From Mesorhizobium opportunistum WSM2075 (lineage in GTDB: Bacteria > Pseudomonadota > Alphaproteobacteria > Rhizobiales > Rhizobiaceae): a stretch of 64,000 nucleotides of DNA. The notes beneath the pieces were generated by a model. The model did no database searches. It saw nothing but the letters and a program-made list of their open reading frames with translations, and had not been told where the DNA came from. The stretch lies in the NCBI RefSeq assembly GCF_000176035.2, contig NC_015675.1, positions 5,770,001-5,834,000 on the forward strand, given 5' to 3'. Of this stretch, positions 3,791 through 61,232 are shown piece by piece (the first letter of the stretch is position 1; the number at the start of each line of letters is the position of its first letter). Both the position numbers and the translations under genes were made by a program.

Positions 3791-4957
3791 TTGAAAAGGA
3801 CGGTGCGCCTCCTTCGCCGCACAGCGCTTCTCGCTCTTGCGGCGACGATGACGCTGTCGGCGGCGGCAAGGGCCTCGGATTTTTCCGAGCCGTGGAAGAA
3901 TGCCGACCGCGCTTTGGTGGTCGATGCCTACGAATACAATTCCATCGACTGGGCGCAGCTTGCCACCGACAAACGCGTCGTCGCCTTCATCAACAAGGCA
4001 TCGGACGGCATGCCGCCGCCCTATTTCTGCTTTGGCAGCGACACCGAGGTGAAGCTCTGCAAGGCGTTGTGGAAGCGCCATGCGGTGACGCGCGAGCTGT
4101 TCCAGACGCGCCGGGTCGTGGCCAAGGCGCTCGGCTTGAAATGGGGCGCCTATCATCTTGCCCGCCCCGGCAATCCGGTCGAGCAGGCCAATAATTTCCT
4201 CGATTTCGCCGAACCCGCGCCCGACGATCTCATGGCTCTCGACATCGAGGGCAACGATCCCTCGCAATGGATGTCGCTCGACGATGCCGAGGAGTTCGTG
4301 CGCCAGGTGCACAGGCGCATCGGCCGTTTCCCGGTGCTCTACACCAACGGCAGGACCGCACAGTTCATCGCCGACAACCGCTACAAGTACCGGCTCTTGT
4401 CGCGGCTGCCGCTCTGGTACGCGCGCTACAAGCCTGATATCGACGTGCATTTTCCGATGGGCAACTGGCAGGGCTATGCACTCTGGCAATTTTCAGCGCA
4501 GGCCAATTGCGGCCATTTCCGTTGCCCCTACAGGGTCGCCGGCACGCCTGACAATATCGACGTCAACGTCGCGCCGACAGATGCCGCCACGCTGCGCCAG
4601 CAATGGCCTTTCGGCGGGCTGATCGACGTGCCGTCAGACTATCTCGCCAGCGTACCGGTGCCGCTGTCGCGCGAAGCAGCGTTGGCCGGCAAGACCACCC
4701 TCATCTATGCCGATGTCGCGACGCCGCCGACGTTCGAGGAACTGGTCGCGGTGCTCGGTACGCGCTGGTCCAGATTCCGCAATGGTTTTCGCATGCCTGT
4801 CGTGAAGACCGTACCGCGACGGCCGAGCTTCGGCATCGTCCAATATGTTGCCTGGAAGCGGACCGAGCAGCGTTCACCCGCGCAACTCGATGCCGCCTTC
4901 GCCGCGGCCGACCCGGTCAGCACCGCTTCGACCAAAAGCGATCGCGGCCAGCGGTAG
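3791..4957 (+). CDS. exported glycoside hydrolase family 25 (lysozyme-like)
   Basis: A putative exported muramidase that would hydrolyse the MurNAc-GlcNAc bond of peptidoglycan. After a signal peptide (basic KRTVRLLRR, then LLALAATMTLSAAARA) comes a GH25 barrel: VVDAYEYNSIDW near the start, FINKASDG, KWGAYHLARPG, and the acidic catalytic strand LMALDIEGND. YTNGRTAQF and ALWQFSAQ follow. I chose the TTG at 3791 because it places the signal peptide correctly and avoids overlap with the previous gene; the upstream ATG at 3671 would bury the signal. The last ~120 residues match nothing I recognise. Confidence 0.8.
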   Translation: MKRTVRLLRRTALLALAATMTLSAAARASDFSEPWKNADRALVVDAYEYNSIDWAQLATDKRVVAFINKASDGMPPPYFCFGSDTEVKLCKALWKRHAVTRELFQTRRVVAKALGLKWGAYHLARPGNPVEQANNFLDFAEPAPDDLMALDIEGNDPSQWMSLDDAEEFVRQVHRRIGRFPVLYTNGRTAQFIADNRYKYRLLSRLPLWYARYKPDIDVHFPMGNWQGYALWQFSAQANCGHFRCPYRVAGTPDNIDVNVAPTDAATLRQQWPFGGLIDVPSDYLASVPVPLSREAALAGKTTLIYADVATPPTFEELVAVLGTRWSRFRNGFRMPVVKTVPRRPSFGIVQYVAWKRTEQRSPAQLDAAFAAADPVSTASTKSDRGQR

Positions 4958-55993: not shown

Positions 55994-56300
55994 CGGTTTC
56001 TTCAAGTGGTTCGGTCCTGAAGGGCAGCTATCGCTTGTGGAGCATGCAGCGCCGATCGCACAACCCGCTCGGCTGAGCCTCGACGCCAATCATCCGGCTG
56101 CCCGGAAAACCGTCCCAACTGATGCAATCTGATGGGACCGCTGATGGCGCCGCGTCAGCCGACAACTACATCTGCAGATGGAGGCTTGCCATCCGTCGAA
56201 AAAGGGAATGCTCTGAGGCATCCGACCGGCGCTGGCAAAAGACGCAATCCGGCTGACGCCGGAACAAGGGACGGATCATCTTCAACCGGGAGGAAATCAA
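55994..56300 (+). other. intergenic region before the sugar ABC operon
   Basis: No gene is seen in these 307 bp. They hold the leader of the sugar importer. Candidate regulator sites are the perfect palindrome CATCTGCAGATG (56169-56180), GTCCCA-N14-TGGGAC (56112-56137) and TCCGGC-TGAC-GCCGGA (56248-56263). GGGAGG at 56288 is the ribosome site of the binding-protein gene. Confidence 0.5.
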
Positions 56301-57236
56301 ATGCTGACAAGACTGAGACTTGTGCTCTACGGACTGCTGGTCGCGCTGACGCTCGTTCCGGCGGCGGCGCAGGCCAAGACGTTCTACTGGATTTCACATG
56401 GCGGTCCGGCCGATCCGGTCTGGACCTACTTCCTGGCCGGCGCCAAGCAATGGGCCAAGGACACCGGCAATACCGTCAACACCTCGTTCCACAATGGTGA
56501 CGTCGCCTCGCAGCAGGAAGCGGTTCGCGCCGCCCTCTCCGCCAAGGCCGACGGCATCGTCACCACCAGCCCCGACCCGGGCAGCCTTGTCGAGATCGTC
56601 AAGGAGGCCCGCGCGGCCAACGTCCCGATCATCAACTTCAACACGCCCGATCCCAAGGCCAATTTCAACGCCTATGTCGGCGGCGACAATGTCACCTTCG
56701 GCAAGCATTGGGCGCAGTATCTGGTCGACAAGGGCCTGGTGAAGAAGGGCGACTTCGTCTGGATGCCGGTCGAGATTCCCGGCGCCACCTATGGCGTCCA
56801 GGAAGAGGAAGGCATCAAGAGCGTCTTCGGACCGCTCGGCATCACCTATGAAGTGACCGAAGCGACGCTCGACCAGGCCGAGGTGATCAACCGCATGGTC
56901 GACTACCTCACCGCCCACAAGGGCAAGGTGAAGGCGATCATCGGCCTTGGCGATCTGGTCACCGGCTCGATCAAGCGGGTATTCGACCAGGTCGGGGTCA
57001 AGCCCGGCGAAATTCCGGTCGTCGGTTGGGGCAACTCGCTCGACACAACGCAGGAAGTGCTGAACGGCTATGTCAATGCCGGCCAGTGGCAGGACCCGCA
57101 GGCAACCAGCTATGTCGCGCTCTCGCTCGCCAATATGGCCGCGTCAGGCATTCCTCCGGGCTTCAACGTCATCACCGGCGCGCTCTATGAAAAGGACACC
57201 GCCGAGGTCTACGACAAGATCCTGTCGGGTAAATAA
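56301..57236 (+). CDS. sugar ABC transporter substrate-binding protein (RbsB type)
   Basis: A 311-residue periplasmic protein of the ribose/galactose type. The signal peptide is RLVLYGLLVALTLVPAAAQA, and the mature part begins KTFYWISHGGPADPVWTYFL. The hinge and ligand regions include ADGIVTTSPDPGSLVEIVKE near 90 and GKVKAIIGLGDLVTGSIKRV near 210. A GGGAGG precedes the ATG. The permease and ATPase follow. The specific sugar is unknown; ligands of this fold also include AI-2 and polyols. Confidence 0.9.
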   Translation: MLTRLRLVLYGLLVALTLVPAAAQAKTFYWISHGGPADPVWTYFLAGAKQWAKDTGNTVNTSFHNGDVASQQEAVRAALSAKADGIVTTSPDPGSLVEIVKEARAANVPIINFNTPDPKANFNAYVGGDNVTFGKHWAQYLVDKGLVKKGDFVWMPVEIPGATYGVQEEEGIKSVFGPLGITYEVTEATLDQAEVINRMVDYLTAHKGKVKAIIGLGDLVTGSIKRVFDQVGVKPGEIPVVGWGNSLDTTQEVLNGYVNAGQWQDPQATSYVALSLANMAASGIPPGFNVITGALYEKDTAEVYDKILSGK

Positions 57237-57353: not shown

Positions 57354-58340
57354 GTGGAAAATCATTCGCTCGTCCAACGCCTGATCGCGCGGCCGGAATT
57401 CGGTCCCTTCGTGCTCCTGGTCGTCGAAATCGGCGTTTTCTGGAGCTTCAATCACGACTTCCTGTCGCCGCAGAACATCTCCAATACGCTGGCATTCACG
57501 GTCGAGCTCGGCCTGATCGCGCTGGCGATGACATTGCTGATGACATCGGGCGAATTCGACCTGTCCGTCGGTTCCCTATTCGGTTTCTCGCCGGTGCTGA
57601 TGTGGACGCTGTTCAATGCCGGCGTCACCTCGCTGGAGATGGGCTTCGTCGTCGCGCTGGTGGTCGCAGCCTTGATCGGACTGGTCAACGGCTGGTTCGT
57701 CACGCAGCTCAAGATCCCGTCCTTCCTGGTCACGCTCGGCATGTTGCTGGTGGTGCGCGGCAGCGCCCTTTTCATCACCGACGGCTTCCCACAGCGCACC
57801 TGGAGCGCCGAGGGCAGCTGGCTGGCGGAAGCGCTGGTCGGAGACTTCTTCATCGGGCCGTTCCGCATCTACATGTCGCTGTTCTGGTTCATCGCCGCGG
57901 CGATCGCGCTCGGCTACGTGCTGACGCAAAGCCGAACCGGAAACTGGATCCAGGCGGCGGGCGGCAATCCCAACGCGGCGCGCGCCCGCGGCGTCAACGT
58001 CAACCGCGTCAAGATCGGCCTGTTCGTGCTGTCATCGGTCATGGCCTCGCTTGCCGGCGTCATCTCCTCGCTGCGCACCTCCGCCGCCAACCCCAACAGC
58101 GGCACCGGTTACGAGCTCGAAGTCATCGCCATGGTGGTGATCGGCGGCACGGCGCTGACCGGCGGGCGCGGCACCATCATCGGCACCGTGCTCGGCATCC
58201 TGATCCTGCGCGTGATGCGCAACGGCATCGTGCTGATCGGCGTGCCCGGCCTTGCCTACAACATCTTCATCGGCGCGATCATCCTTGGCATGATGGCGCT
58301 TCATTCATGGCTGGAACGCCGGCACCAGGCAGGGACTTGA
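57354..58340 (+). CDS. sugar ABC transporter permease (RbsC type)
   Basis: A 328-residue permease with eight to ten helices. ALAMTLLMTSGEFDLSVGSL near residue 58 is the conserved IDLSVG-type motif, and LKIPSFLVTLGMLLVVRG near 117 follows. The C-terminal VIGGTALTGGRGTIIGTVLG near 262 contacts the ATPase. The start is a GTG. The ATPase gene follows after 3 bp. Confidence 0.92.
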   Translation: MENHSLVQRLIARPEFGPFVLLVVEIGVFWSFNHDFLSPQNISNTLAFTVELGLIALAMTLLMTSGEFDLSVGSLFGFSPVLMWTLFNAGVTSLEMGFVVALVVAALIGLVNGWFVTQLKIPSFLVTLGMLLVVRGSALFITDGFPQRTWSAEGSWLAEALVGDFFIGPFRIYMSLFWFIAAAIALGYVLTQSRTGNWIQAAGGNPNAARARGVNVNRVKIGLFVLSSVMASLAGVISSLRTSAANPNSGTGYELEVIAMVVIGGTALTGGRGTIIGTVLGILILRVMRNGIVLIGVPGLAYNIFIGAIILGMMALHSWLERRHQAGT

Positions 58341-58343
58341 ACC

Positions 58344-59135
58344 ATGGCCGAGCCACTGATCCGCATGCAGAACATCCGCAAGTCCTATGGCCGCGTGCAG
58401 GCGCTCGAGGACGCCAACTTCCATGTCAACGAACGCGAGATCGTCGGCCTGCTCGGCGACAATGGTGCCGGCAAGTCGACGCTGATCAAGGTGCTCTCGG
58501 GTGCCGTGCCGCTGACCAGCGGCGACATCTTCATCCGCGGCAAGAAGGTCGCCCTGCGCAGCACAAGCGACGCCATCGCCCACGGCATCGAGACCATCTA
58601 CCAGGACTCGGCGCTGGTCACGCAGCTGTCGATTGCGCGCAATCTGTTTCTTGGGCGCGAGCCGATCAAGCCGCCGCGCTTCCTCAACCGCATGGACCAG
58701 GAGGCGATGAACACTGTCGCCCGCGACCTGCTCAAGCAGGTCGGCATTTCGAAGAACATCCCGCCGACGACGCCGATCGGCTCGCTCTCCGGCGGCGAGC
58801 GCCAGGCAGTGGCGATCGCGCGCGCCATGCATTTCGACAGCGACCTCATCATCCTCGACGAACCGACCAACAATCTCGGCGTTGCCGAAACACAGGGCGT
58901 GCTGAGCTTCGTGCGCAGCGCGCGCGATTCCGGCCATTCCTGTATCTTCATTGCGCACAACATCCATCACGTCTTCCAGGTGGTCGACCGCATCGTCGTC
59001 ATGCGCAGGGGCAAGGTGGTCGCCGACGACATCGACCCGAAGACGACAACCGTGGCGGAAGTCGAACGGATCATCACCGGCATGTCGGACAAGGAAATCC
59101 GCGACGCCGTCGCCGACGGCAAGCCGCCGCACTGA
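58344..59135 (+). CDS. sugar ABC transporter ATP-binding protein
   Basis: A 263-residue single-cassette ATPase of the carbohydrate type (half the length of RbsA, so it works as a dimer). Walker A is GLLGDNGAGKSTLIKVLSG near residue 35, the signature GSLSGGERQAVAIARAMHF near 145 and Walker B DLIILDEPTNNLGVAETQGV near 166. It completes a binding protein-permease-ATPase operon on the plus strand. Confidence 0.92.
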   Translation: MAEPLIRMQNIRKSYGRVQALEDANFHVNEREIVGLLGDNGAGKSTLIKVLSGAVPLTSGDIFIRGKKVALRSTSDAIAHGIETIYQDSALVTQLSIARNLFLGREPIKPPRFLNRMDQEAMNTVARDLLKQVGISKNIPPTTPIGSLSGGERQAVAIARAMHFDSDLIILDEPTNNLGVAETQGVLSFVRSARDSGHSCIFIAHNIHHVFQVVDRIVVMRRGKVVADDIDPKTTTVAEVERIITGMSDKEIRDAVADGKPPH

Positions 59136-59272: not shown

Positions 59273-60295
59273 ATGAAGGCCACCGTCTCCGATATCGCCA
59301 GGACCTGCGGGCTCTCGACGGCAACGGTCGACAGGGTGCTCAACAATCGGCCGGGCGCCAGCGCCGCCAACCGGCAGCGCGTCATGGAGGCCGCCAAGCA
59401 GCTCGGCTATCTGCCGGTCGCCGACCAGGTGACGCTTCCCTCCAAGCCCGCAAACCTCGAATTCTTCCTGCCGATCGGCAGCAACGCCTTCATGCAGGAT
59501 CTGGCAAGATACATCGAAGACTATGCGTCGCGCCTGCCGCTCGTCGCTTCCTGCCGGATCCACAATCTAGCCGGCATATCGCCGAACGCGCTGCAGACAG
59601 CCGTCGAGAACCTGTCGCTGCGGGCCAATGGCGTCGGTGTCATCGCCATCGACCATCCGCGAACCCGCAACATCCTGCGCGACATCGTCGACACCGGCAT
59701 CCGCCTGGTGACGCTGGTGTCCGATATTCCGGCCGCTCCCCGCTCGGCCTATGTCGGCATCGACAACCGCATGGCGGGACGGACGGCGGCGCTTTTGATG
59801 GGACGTTTCCTCGGCGGCCGTGAGGGCCGCCTGGCGATGGTCGTCGGCTCGCGCTCCTATCGCGGCCATGAGGAACGCGAAATGGGCTTCCGTTCCGTGC
59901 TCGGCGAGGAGTTTCCCAACCTGACCATCAGCAGCGCTGTCGAGATCAATGACGAGCCCGATGTCAGCTATGCCGAGACGATGAAGGCGCTGCGCAACGA
60001 GCCGGAACTGCTCGGCATCTATTGTGTCGGGGCCGGACGCTCCGGCGTCGCGAAAGCCATCCGGGAAGCCAGGCCAAATCGCAAGCCGGTGTTCATCTGC
60101 CACGATCTGACCAAGGAAACACGCGGCTATCTCGTCGATGACCTCGCCGATGTCGTCATCGACCAGAACGCCAGGCTGATCGCCGAACAGTCGGTCATCC
60201 GCCTGCTTGGCTCGATTGCCTCATCGGCGCCTTATCTCACCCGGAAATTCATCGAACCGCGCCTGATCTTCAGGGAAAACGTTCCGGTTCAATAG
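59273..60295 (+). CDS. LacI-family transcriptional regulator
   Basis: A 340-residue LacI-type regulator. The HTH and hinge helix are VSDIARTCGLSTATVDRVLN to about residue 55, followed by a periplasmic-binding-like effector domain (LEFFLPIGSNAFMQDLARYI near 63). It lies downstream of the sugar importer on the same strand and probably represses it in the absence of the sugar. The palindromes in 55994-56300 are candidate sites. Confidence 0.9.
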   Translation: MKATVSDIARTCGLSTATVDRVLNNRPGASAANRQRVMEAAKQLGYLPVADQVTLPSKPANLEFFLPIGSNAFMQDLARYIEDYASRLPLVASCRIHNLAGISPNALQTAVENLSLRANGVGVIAIDHPRTRNILRDIVDTGIRLVTLVSDIPAAPRSAYVGIDNRMAGRTAALLMGRFLGGREGRLAMVVGSRSYRGHEEREMGFRSVLGEEFPNLTISSAVEINDEPDVSYAETMKALRNEPELLGIYCVGAGRSGVAKAIREARPNRKPVFICHDLTKETRGYLVDDLADVVIDQNARLIAEQSVIRLLGSIASSAPYLTRKFIEPRLIFRENVPVQ

Positions 60296-60391
60296 GTTAG
60301 CGCGCCTGCGCAAGGCGGCTTTGTTCGGATTTGTAGGAGGATTGACGGGTGCTGCGGCAATTCTGCACACCTGCTATGCAACTTTTATGGT

Positions 60392-60420
60392 TGCCGAATC
60401 ATTGGGCAACTCGTAGGTTC
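60392..60420 (+). promoter_or_regulatory. candidate promoter of the alpha-r14 sRNA
   Basis: TTGCCG (60392-60397), a 17-bp spacer and TAGGTT (60415-60420) form a sigma70-type promoter. Transcription would start a few bases further on, giving an RNA of about 115-120 nt ending at the terminator. Confidence 0.5.
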
Positions 60421-60423
60421 TGG

Positions 60424-60539
60424 TTGTCGGCCATCTACTCCTCCCAGATGCGATGCCGGCGCTGAGTGGGGTGCACCTCCTCCCGCACCACATTCGAAAT
60501 CGAGCCCGCTGCCACCTCCTCCCGGCAGCGGGCTTTTTT
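60424..60539 (+). ncRNA. alpha-r14 (NfeR1/suhB-type) small RNA
   Basis: Three hairpins each expose an anti-Shine-Dalgarno loop CTCCTCCC. Hairpin 1 is CATCT / AGATG with the motif at 60438-60445, hairpin 2 is GGTGC / GCACC with it at 60476-60484, and hairpin 3, also the terminator, has it at 60515-60523. This is the architecture of the rhizobial alpha-r14 family (S. meliloti NfeR1, Rfam suhB), which binds mRNA leaders. The length of about 116 nt also fits. No protein is encoded in the 343-bp gap. Confidence 0.88.
60503..60539 (+). terminator. Rho-independent terminator of the sRNA
   Basis: AGCCCGCTGCC (60503-60513) pairs with GGCAGCGGGCT (60524-60534), an 11-bp perfect stem, followed by a run of Ts. 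The loop ACCTCCTCCC carries the third anti-SD motif. Confidence 0.92.
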
Positions 60540-60638
60540 CGTTCCGTTGGCAGGAATTGCAGTGCTGCCCGGCGCCAAAGGGCACCAGGCATCGCCTAGA
60601 TCGCACGACAAGTTGAATGGAACGCGCGGCCGATCACT

Positions 60639-61232
60639 TCAGCTGGCGGCAGTGCCCCGGAAAGAAACAATCAGCCCCTCGGCCATGCGCACGAACTGCG
60701 CGCTTGGCCCTTCGGCGCCCACGGTCTGCACGCTGACACGCGCGCCCTCGAACAGCAGCGACAGCGTATCGGCGAGCAGTTCTACCTGACCGATGCCGGC
60801 ATCCCGGCACAGCGCCACAAGACGTTCGCGCTGGGCTTCCTTGAGTTCCTTGATCACGCGTCGGGCCGGATGGTCGGGCTCGGTCAGCTCGGCCGCGGCA
60901 TTGGCCATGTCGCAGCCGCGACCATCGGCATTGAGCATGGCGGCCGCCTTGCGAACCCAGGCGTGAAGCTGCGCGAGCTTGTCGCCCGGAAATTCGGCCT
61001 CGAAGGCTTCCCACATCGCGCCGGCCTTGGACGCATTGGCGCGCAGGCATTCGACGATCAGATCGTCCTTGGATTCGAAGTGACGATAAAGCGTCATCTT
61101 GTTCGTGCCGGCAGCTTCGGTGATGGCGTCGACGCCAACGCCTTTGATGCCGTGCTTGTGGAACATGTCACGCGCCGTCTCCAGGATCCGATCCCGGGGA
61201 CGAGGGCGCTCCACGACGCCGTCTGTCATCAT
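60639..61232 (-). CDS. TetR/AcrR-family transcriptional regulator
   Basis: A 197-residue TetR regulator. The HTH is RDRILETARDMFHKHGIKGV through GTNKMTLYRHFESKDDLIVE to about residue 60. The rest is a helical ligand-binding domain. Two adjacent ATGs (61232 and 61229) are possible; AGGAG lies best for the second. It is divergent from the RND pump genes. A 47-bp dyad in the gap is its likely operator. Confidence 0.9.
   Translation of the reverse strand: MMTDGVVERPRPRDRILETARDMFHKHGIKGVGVDAITEAAGTNKMTLYRHFESKDDLIVECLRANASKAGAMWEAFEAEFPGDKLAQLHAWVRKAAAMLNADGRGCDMANAAAELTEPDHPARRVIKELKEAQRERLVALCRDAGIGQVELLADTLSLLFEGARVSVQTVGAEGPSAQFVRMAEGLIVSFRGTAAS

Follow-up and report, generated by a model that had tools for sequence, protein, structure and literature searches.

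A conserved ar14-family small RNA gene behind a LacI regulator gene in Mesorhizobium, with a probable double-dyad promoter

Behind a LacI-family regulator gene in the window (the whole 64-kb stretch of DNA analyzed here), three successive hairpins present a common anti-Shine-Dalgarno loop. The locus raises the question of whether these hairpins constitute an RNA gene of their own and, if so, to which family it belongs, what controls it, and which messages it acts on. The explanation that we favor, and consider likely, is a stand-alone gene for a trans-acting sRNA of the ar14 family, whose loops would block GGGAGGA ribosome sites and whose promoter would be governed by a dyad-binding repressor, likely of the NtrC type.

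Structure and family of the RNA

Pfam matches bear out the placement given in a preliminary description of this DNA, after an ABC operon and a LacI gene. The operon comprises genes for a periplasmic binding protein (56301..57236, + strand; Peripla_BP_4), a permease (57354-58340, +; BPD_transp_2), and an ATPase (58344-59135, +; ABC_tran), and it is followed by the LacI-family gene (59273..60295, +; LacI and Peripla_BP_4). Downstream of the RNA lies a convergent TetR-family gene (60639..61232, −; TetR_N). A weak terminator-like hairpin 3' of LacI (60303..60317, +) is at about chance level (1 found versus 0.5 expected).

The predicted fold consists of three hairpins with CUCCUCCC loops (minimum free energy of −52.9 kcal/mol, z −5.0), and none of 200 shuffles was equally stable. 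Hairpin 1 (60426..60460, +) presents ACUCCUCCC at 60437-60445, hairpin 2 (60464..60495, +) presents ACCUCCUCCC at 60475-60484, and hairpin 3 (60502..60539, +) presents ACCUCCUCCC again at 60514-60523; loops 2 and 3 thus share ACCTCCTCCC, and loop 1 is ACTCCTCCC, shorter by one C. This fold and the motif positions uphold the earlier claim of three successive hairpins with a common loop or core. Among the loop positions listed at that time, 60438 is the start of the octamer CTCCTCCC, and 60476 and 60515 mark where CCTCCTCCC begins; the octamers themselves start at 60477 and 60516. The triple array is unique in the 64-kb window, and 100 dinucleotide shuffles never produced it; the octamer CTCCTCCC alone is unremarkable there (5 seen versus 2.4 expected, with 8 of 100 shuffles reaching at least 5). 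Hairpin 3 is, as had been described, a perfect 11-bp terminator, in which 60503-60513 pair with 60524-60534 and six T follow the stem (T-run at 60534-60539). It is missing from the list of a generic terminator scan because that scan admits loops of 3 to 8 only.

The covariance model for ar14 (alpha-r14, cuckoo family), RF02344, matches 60422-60539 (+) over its full length (1-123) with 72.5 bits against a gathering cut-off of 58.8, in agreement with the alpha-r14 identity proposed earlier. The suhB model (RF00519), which had been suggested as the check, gave no match over 60200-60700 even at E values up to 1, and suhB was ruled out as the family. In published work, cited here and below from the portions available to us, the ar14 family and S. 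meliloti NfeR1 (SmelC397, Smr14C2) are described as having three hairpins with CCUCCUCCC in each loop and several copies per genome (PMC10746234, PMC7143759). Like NfeR1, the window RNA matches the ar14 model, belongs to a genome with several copies, and has three hairpins with this motif unpaired in the loops, complete in loops 2 and 3 and minus one C in loop 1 (ACUCCUCCC). Its final hairpin is a Rho-independent terminator of 11 bp and six T, and its structure is conserved despite variation in the stems. Judged by sequence and predicted fold, the window RNA is a further member of the already known ar14 family.

Covariation was assessed over 56 distinct sequences (the window, 53 LacI loci, and 2 from other genera) against the window's own predicted fold, a choice that favors this structure. 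Across the alignment, 96.8% of cells pair, compared with 32-46% when partners are slid by 1-3 columns. Both sides are altered in 11 of 33 pairs versus 2.6 in shuffles, and none of 500 shuffles reached as high. Hairpin 2 carries both-sided changes in 4 of its 10 pairs, and hairpin 3 is paired in 99.9% of cells. The apical stem of hairpin 1 is paired in 85.5% of cells, with no both-sided change, on the automatic alignment, where the aligner misplaces part of it; read directly, this stem is CATCT/AGATG in 32 of the 56 sequences and TGTCT/AGACA in 13.

Two related groups share features with the window RNA. The loop motif is common to CcsR1-4 of Rhodobacter (Cuckoo family, RF02791) and to the CIN1 loci, which in other alphaproteobacteria include a DUF1127 gene (PMC10253847); in contrast, the window copy is single, has LacI and TetR genes as neighbors with no DUF1127 gene beside it, and reaches 39.2 bits with the CcsR1 model at 60200-60700 in a permissive search, under the cut-off of 65.3. 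AbcR1 and AbcR2, termed NfeR1-related in PMC10746234, are small RNAs whose loops are, at least in part, anti-Shine-Dalgarno (PMC3927594), and AbcR homologues regulate ABC transporters according to a published abstract. Such loops are also present here, but the covariance searches reported no AbcR-type family at the locus. The accessible portions of the open-licence literature on ar14 and Mesorhizobium sRNAs yielded no description of the window locus, which may figure among the candidates of an M. huakuii sRNA survey (PMC5596092).

The promoter and its two dyads

The preliminary description started the RNA at 60392, a position that falls inside the promoter. Upstream of the RNA, a first conserved dyad, TGCACACCTGCTATGCA (TGC-N11-GCA), occupies 60364..60380 (+), and a second, TGCCGAATCATTGGGCA (TGC-N11-GCA), occupies 60392..60408 (+) and overlaps the probable −35 element TTGCCG (60391..60396, +). 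Promoters were compared in a set of 80, namely the window and 79 loci from the best LacI relatives. The −35 element was found in all 80, with TA 16-18 nt further on in all 80; the probable −10 element, TAGGTT (60414..60419, +), is weak and reads TATATT in L067. The box of dyad 1, TGCACANNNGCTATGCA, is exact in 74 of the 80 and has at most 2 mismatches in every one. Two TGC-N11-GCA dyads lie exactly 28 bp apart in 78 of the 80 LacI-locus promoters, with L067 and L068 the exceptions. Base-shuffled promoters gave such a 28-bp pair in 1 of 16000, a figure that is no probability since the promoter rows are related. In the 64-kb window, the only TGC-N11-GCA pair spaced 20-40 bp apart is the promoter pair. 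A generic sigma-70 promoter scan reported nothing at the RNA promoter. From these elements, the RNA would start near 60422-60426, and the transcript likely spans about 60426 to 60539.

Elsewhere in the genome the dyad 1 box does not occur at 0-1 mismatches, and at 2 mismatches it has 4 other places versus 2 for the reversed control; a widespread operator was discarded as an interpretation of the box. Within the accessible parts of the open-licence literature on ar14 RNAs and rhizobial NtrC sites, we found no description of the double dyad.

Conservation was followed in the best 80 LacI relatives retained by the search, in which relatives at 96% identity belong to Mesorhizobium. The triple motif is present 3' of LacI in 79 of the 80 (78 exact, L067 with one changed base); L115, with a LacI only 69% identical, has none downstream. 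At least 135 of 146 genus genomes match a 206-base query of promoter plus RNA, at least 130 of them at E 4e-30 or better; five matches are weak (E above 1e-10), some cover the RNA without the promoter, and the best match in a genome may be a paralogue.

These comparisons bear on whether there is a separate sRNA gene at all, or whether the hairpins merely form the 3' UTR of the LacI mRNA together with its terminator, as the position of the array about 130 bp 3' of LacI on the same strand, with a strong terminator at its end, might suggest. The promoter block is conserved, whereas aligned columns closer to LacI are not. At four loci, the first loop motif lies 2834-2847 bases from LacI, with the promoter intact. 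Other genera, described below, have the same promoter and RNA with no LacI relative in the fetched flanks. A LacI 3' UTR is thus very improbable, and we rejected it on promoter conservation and on the loci separated by about 2.8 kb.

For the protein that would act on the dyads, NfeR1 offers a precedent. The NfeR1 promoter of S. meliloti is repressed by NtrC, which binds to TGC-N11-GCA (published site at −116), and LsrB activates NfeR1 through TGCA-N6-GCAT (PMC10746234). The window dyads have the same 17-bp spacing as published for NtrC and begin at about −62 and −34, closer to the start than the NtrC site reported for NfeR1; the LsrB motif is absent within 200 nt upstream of the window RNA. 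The symmetric form TGCAYA-N5-TRTGCA occurs at 76 of 78 LacI-linked loci but in only 4 of 14 other-genus boxes. The region upstream of dusB contains three TGCACA/TGTGCA half-sites and one TGC-N11-GCA dyad, which adds little to the case for NtrC because the 64-kb window has 17 single dyads of this kind. We therefore infer only as a best guess that an NtrC-type repressor acts on the dyads.

Its main rival is a LysR-type regulator. More broadly, control by a different protein, whether of the LysR type or another TGC-N11-GCA binder, and perhaps as an activator rather than a repressor, is a credible alternative to which we give somewhat less than even weight. The two boxes, which span about −62 to −46 and about −34 to −18, also resemble a LysR-type paired site, which favors this alternative, as do the better conservation of the left half of dyad 1 than of its right half across genera and the scarcity of the symmetric form among other-genus boxes. 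The NtrC-like spacing and the overlap of the second dyad with the −35 element argue against it. Under NtrC-type control, the regulator would most likely occupy both TGC-N11-GCA sites, and the gene would probably be repressed when nutrients are plentiful, repression being suggested because the second dyad covers the −35 element.

A closer equivalence, in which this Mesorhizobium gene would be orthologous to S. meliloti NfeR1, follow the same LsrB/NtrC logic, and act on ntrB, appears unlikely. The two belong to one family; of the five copies in its own genome, only that in the window has TGC-N11-GCA within 200 nt upstream; and the form TGCAYA-N5-TRTGCA of dyad 1 also fits the upstream box of L205, a promoter from another genus with the published NfeR1 site order. 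However, the window promoter differs from that of NfeR1 in having two dyads 28 bp apart near −35 and no TGCA-N6-GCAT motif, so that dyad number and position are not the same, and the published site order is found instead in 2 of 30 other-genus promoters (L199 and L205). The window copy further differs in sitting behind a LacI gene and in the loop 1 that lacks one C. The translation start of ntrB is where NfeR1 loops silence this gene in S. meliloti (PMC10746234), but the ntrB leader of the window's own genome pairs weakly with the 10-nt loop (−5.8 kcal/mol), and the strong pairing expected of an orthologue was not found.

Candidate targets

The ribosome site of the binding-protein gene, GGGAGGA (56288..56294, +), is a 7-nt match to the loops and hence a candidate target. 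Its leader forms a duplex of −13.5 kcal/mol with the loop, the best of the seven leaders tested; the others gave −3.6 (permease), −7.2 (ATPase), −6.9 (LacI), −7.7 (RND pump), −9.2 (TetR), and −5.8 kcal/mol (ntrB). The GGGAGGA leader is kept in 74 of the 80 loci from the best LacI relatives. In four of the six misses (L097, L100, L108, and L114), the upstream sequence is too short to reach the leader; L104 reads TGGAGGA, and no such gene was found in the distant L115. As GGGAGGA is in itself a strong ribosome site, the needs of translation may be enough to explain why it is conserved.

Genome-wide, 159 GGGAGGA leaders were counted versus 8 for the reversed pattern, and 6 full GGGAGGAGG leaders versus 2 in the control. 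From the first 30 of the 159 (two overlap), we scanned every open frame that reached 60 aa, 26 in total. The comparison comprised 26 frames behind AAAGGAGA leaders, of which the genome has 36 (control 4); 24 of these frames were scanned, the window TetR gene made a 25th, and L275 was left out. Reading the Pfam names as labels, transport genes made up 12 of 26 GGGAGGA leaders versus 5 of 25 comparison leaders (p 0.075, a trend only and not significant), and binding-protein genes 8 of 26 versus 3 of 25 (p 0.17).

Under the favored explanation, the three CUCCUCCC loops would base-pair with strong GGGAGGA ribosome sites and so keep ribosomes from entering. Most of these sites would belong to nutrient-uptake genes, among them the binding-protein gene of the adjacent operon. 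The conserved loop complement supports, without proving, silencing of transporter mRNAs. The strong duplex and the leader kept in most loci strengthen the earlier proposal that the RNA acts on such mRNAs, and the action itself is still something that we infer.

Other genera and other copies

Searches of the family extend the promoter-RNA combination beyond Mesorhizobium. Dyad 1 followed by TTGC, with no RNA required, occurs in 6 of 297 genomes of the family and its reversed control in none; all six places, the window and five others, two of these in other genera, directly precede a CTCCTCC array. The double dyad followed by CTCCTCC was found in 19 of 394 family genomes and 12 of 109 genera, with no hit for the reversed control; the exact pattern is absent in the other 375, including 3 of the 8 genus genomes sampled. 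Ten of the 12 genera have ar14 above the cut-off. After removal of overlapping duplicates, 20 places remained, 15 of them outside the genus in 11 genera, and ar14 reached the cut-off at 12 of these 15, in 9 genera. A tblastn search (E 1e-10) found no LacI, TetR, binding-protein, or ATPase relatives in the 2-3 kb loci of the 15 places. Since the double dyad and RNA recur in other genera with no LacI relative in the fetched flanks, promoter and RNA, as far as these genomic comparisons reach, are a unit that travels together, and the LacI neighbor looks like a Mesorhizobium feature.

This promoter is a minority type, one among several, as two such dyads were present in none of the 30 best-scoring other-genus loci (150 upstream bases read). 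The strict NfeR1 core promoter CTTRGAC-N17-CTATAT was found before CTCCTCC in 0 of 199 genomes, and this strict pattern is therefore not useful.

Within its own genome (a single 6.88-Mb contig), the window RNA is one of five ar14 matches above the cut-off. Three are tandem copies with spacers of about 60 bp (4112139-4112620, minus strand), 3' of a DUF1127 small-protein gene, as at the CIN1 loci of other alphaproteobacteria (PMC10253847). The fifth (L005 1501-1613; 2663737-2663849 of the genome) lies directly 3' of a phasin gene and has no TGC-N11-GCA within 200 nt upstream. Matches to ar14 were obtained in 119 of 119 genus genomes examined, above the cut-off in 118 and numbering 1 to 9 each, and in 22 of 22 hand-picked genomes from 21 other genera of the family. 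Such multiplicity could mean that the window copy, with four other ar14 copies in the genome, is redundant or decaying and has no function of its own. We regard this as improbable in view of the compensatory changes in its stems, the promoter kept over 80 loci, and the at least 130 of 146 genus genomes with strong matches to the 206-base query, some of which may be promoter-less paralogues. The promoter-RNA unit offers one way to recognize a stand-alone, regulated ar14 gene among a genome's paralogues.

Twenty further stretches, hand-picked from the 206-base query matches and so not a random sample, included 14 in which an almost identical RNA stands under an unrelated promoter (GTGCRTTGCAATAT ... 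TATGAT), 5 with dyad 1, and 1 unclassified. The 14 (L146-L151, L153-L157, L161, L162, and L164, near position 4000) are partly on plasmids, and their RNA would be a promoter-swapped paralogue. In 11 of them, a crude frame caller gave a next downstream gene from one family, which in a named plasmid is annotated as a cold-shock protein. Among the five with dyad 1, L152 and L165 are LacI-locus copies, and L158 and L159 are alike; one dyad-1 copy is on plasmid pMESCI01 of M. ciceri WSM1271.

A conserved ar14 member is now placed at a fixed Mesorhizobium locus with a probable promoter, in a family whose Sinorhizobium member NfeR1 influences nodulation and nitrogen control (PMC10746234). We offer a wider reading only tentatively, as possible rather than probable: an anti-Shine-Dalgarno promoter-RNA unit with a double-dyad switch would extend across at least 10 genera, and in Mesorhizobium near-identical RNA bodies (about 90-94%), placed on chromosomes and plasmids behind a second promoter unrelated to the first, would let the silencer answer two signals, with the LacI-locus copy silencing its neighbor's binding-protein mRNA. 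The double-dyad site is directly testable with purified regulators.

Several individual loci showed further features. L279 (59.4 bits, barely above the cut-off), L281, and L296 (neither above it) have two loops under the same double-dyad promoter, and the hairpin RNA that follows the double dyad in L282 is a different one, which contains CTCCTCCC only once and ends in a strong terminator. The other-genus copies L294, L295, L296, and L297 have tRNA genes within about 300 bp. In L056, L062, L064, and L086, about 2.7 kb is inserted between LacI and the RNA. Named by eye, the genes of this insert resemble those for a nucleotidyltransferase and an HPr kinase, with a short third gene that ends in a cysteine-rich tail; the insert looks like a peptide-natural-product cluster.
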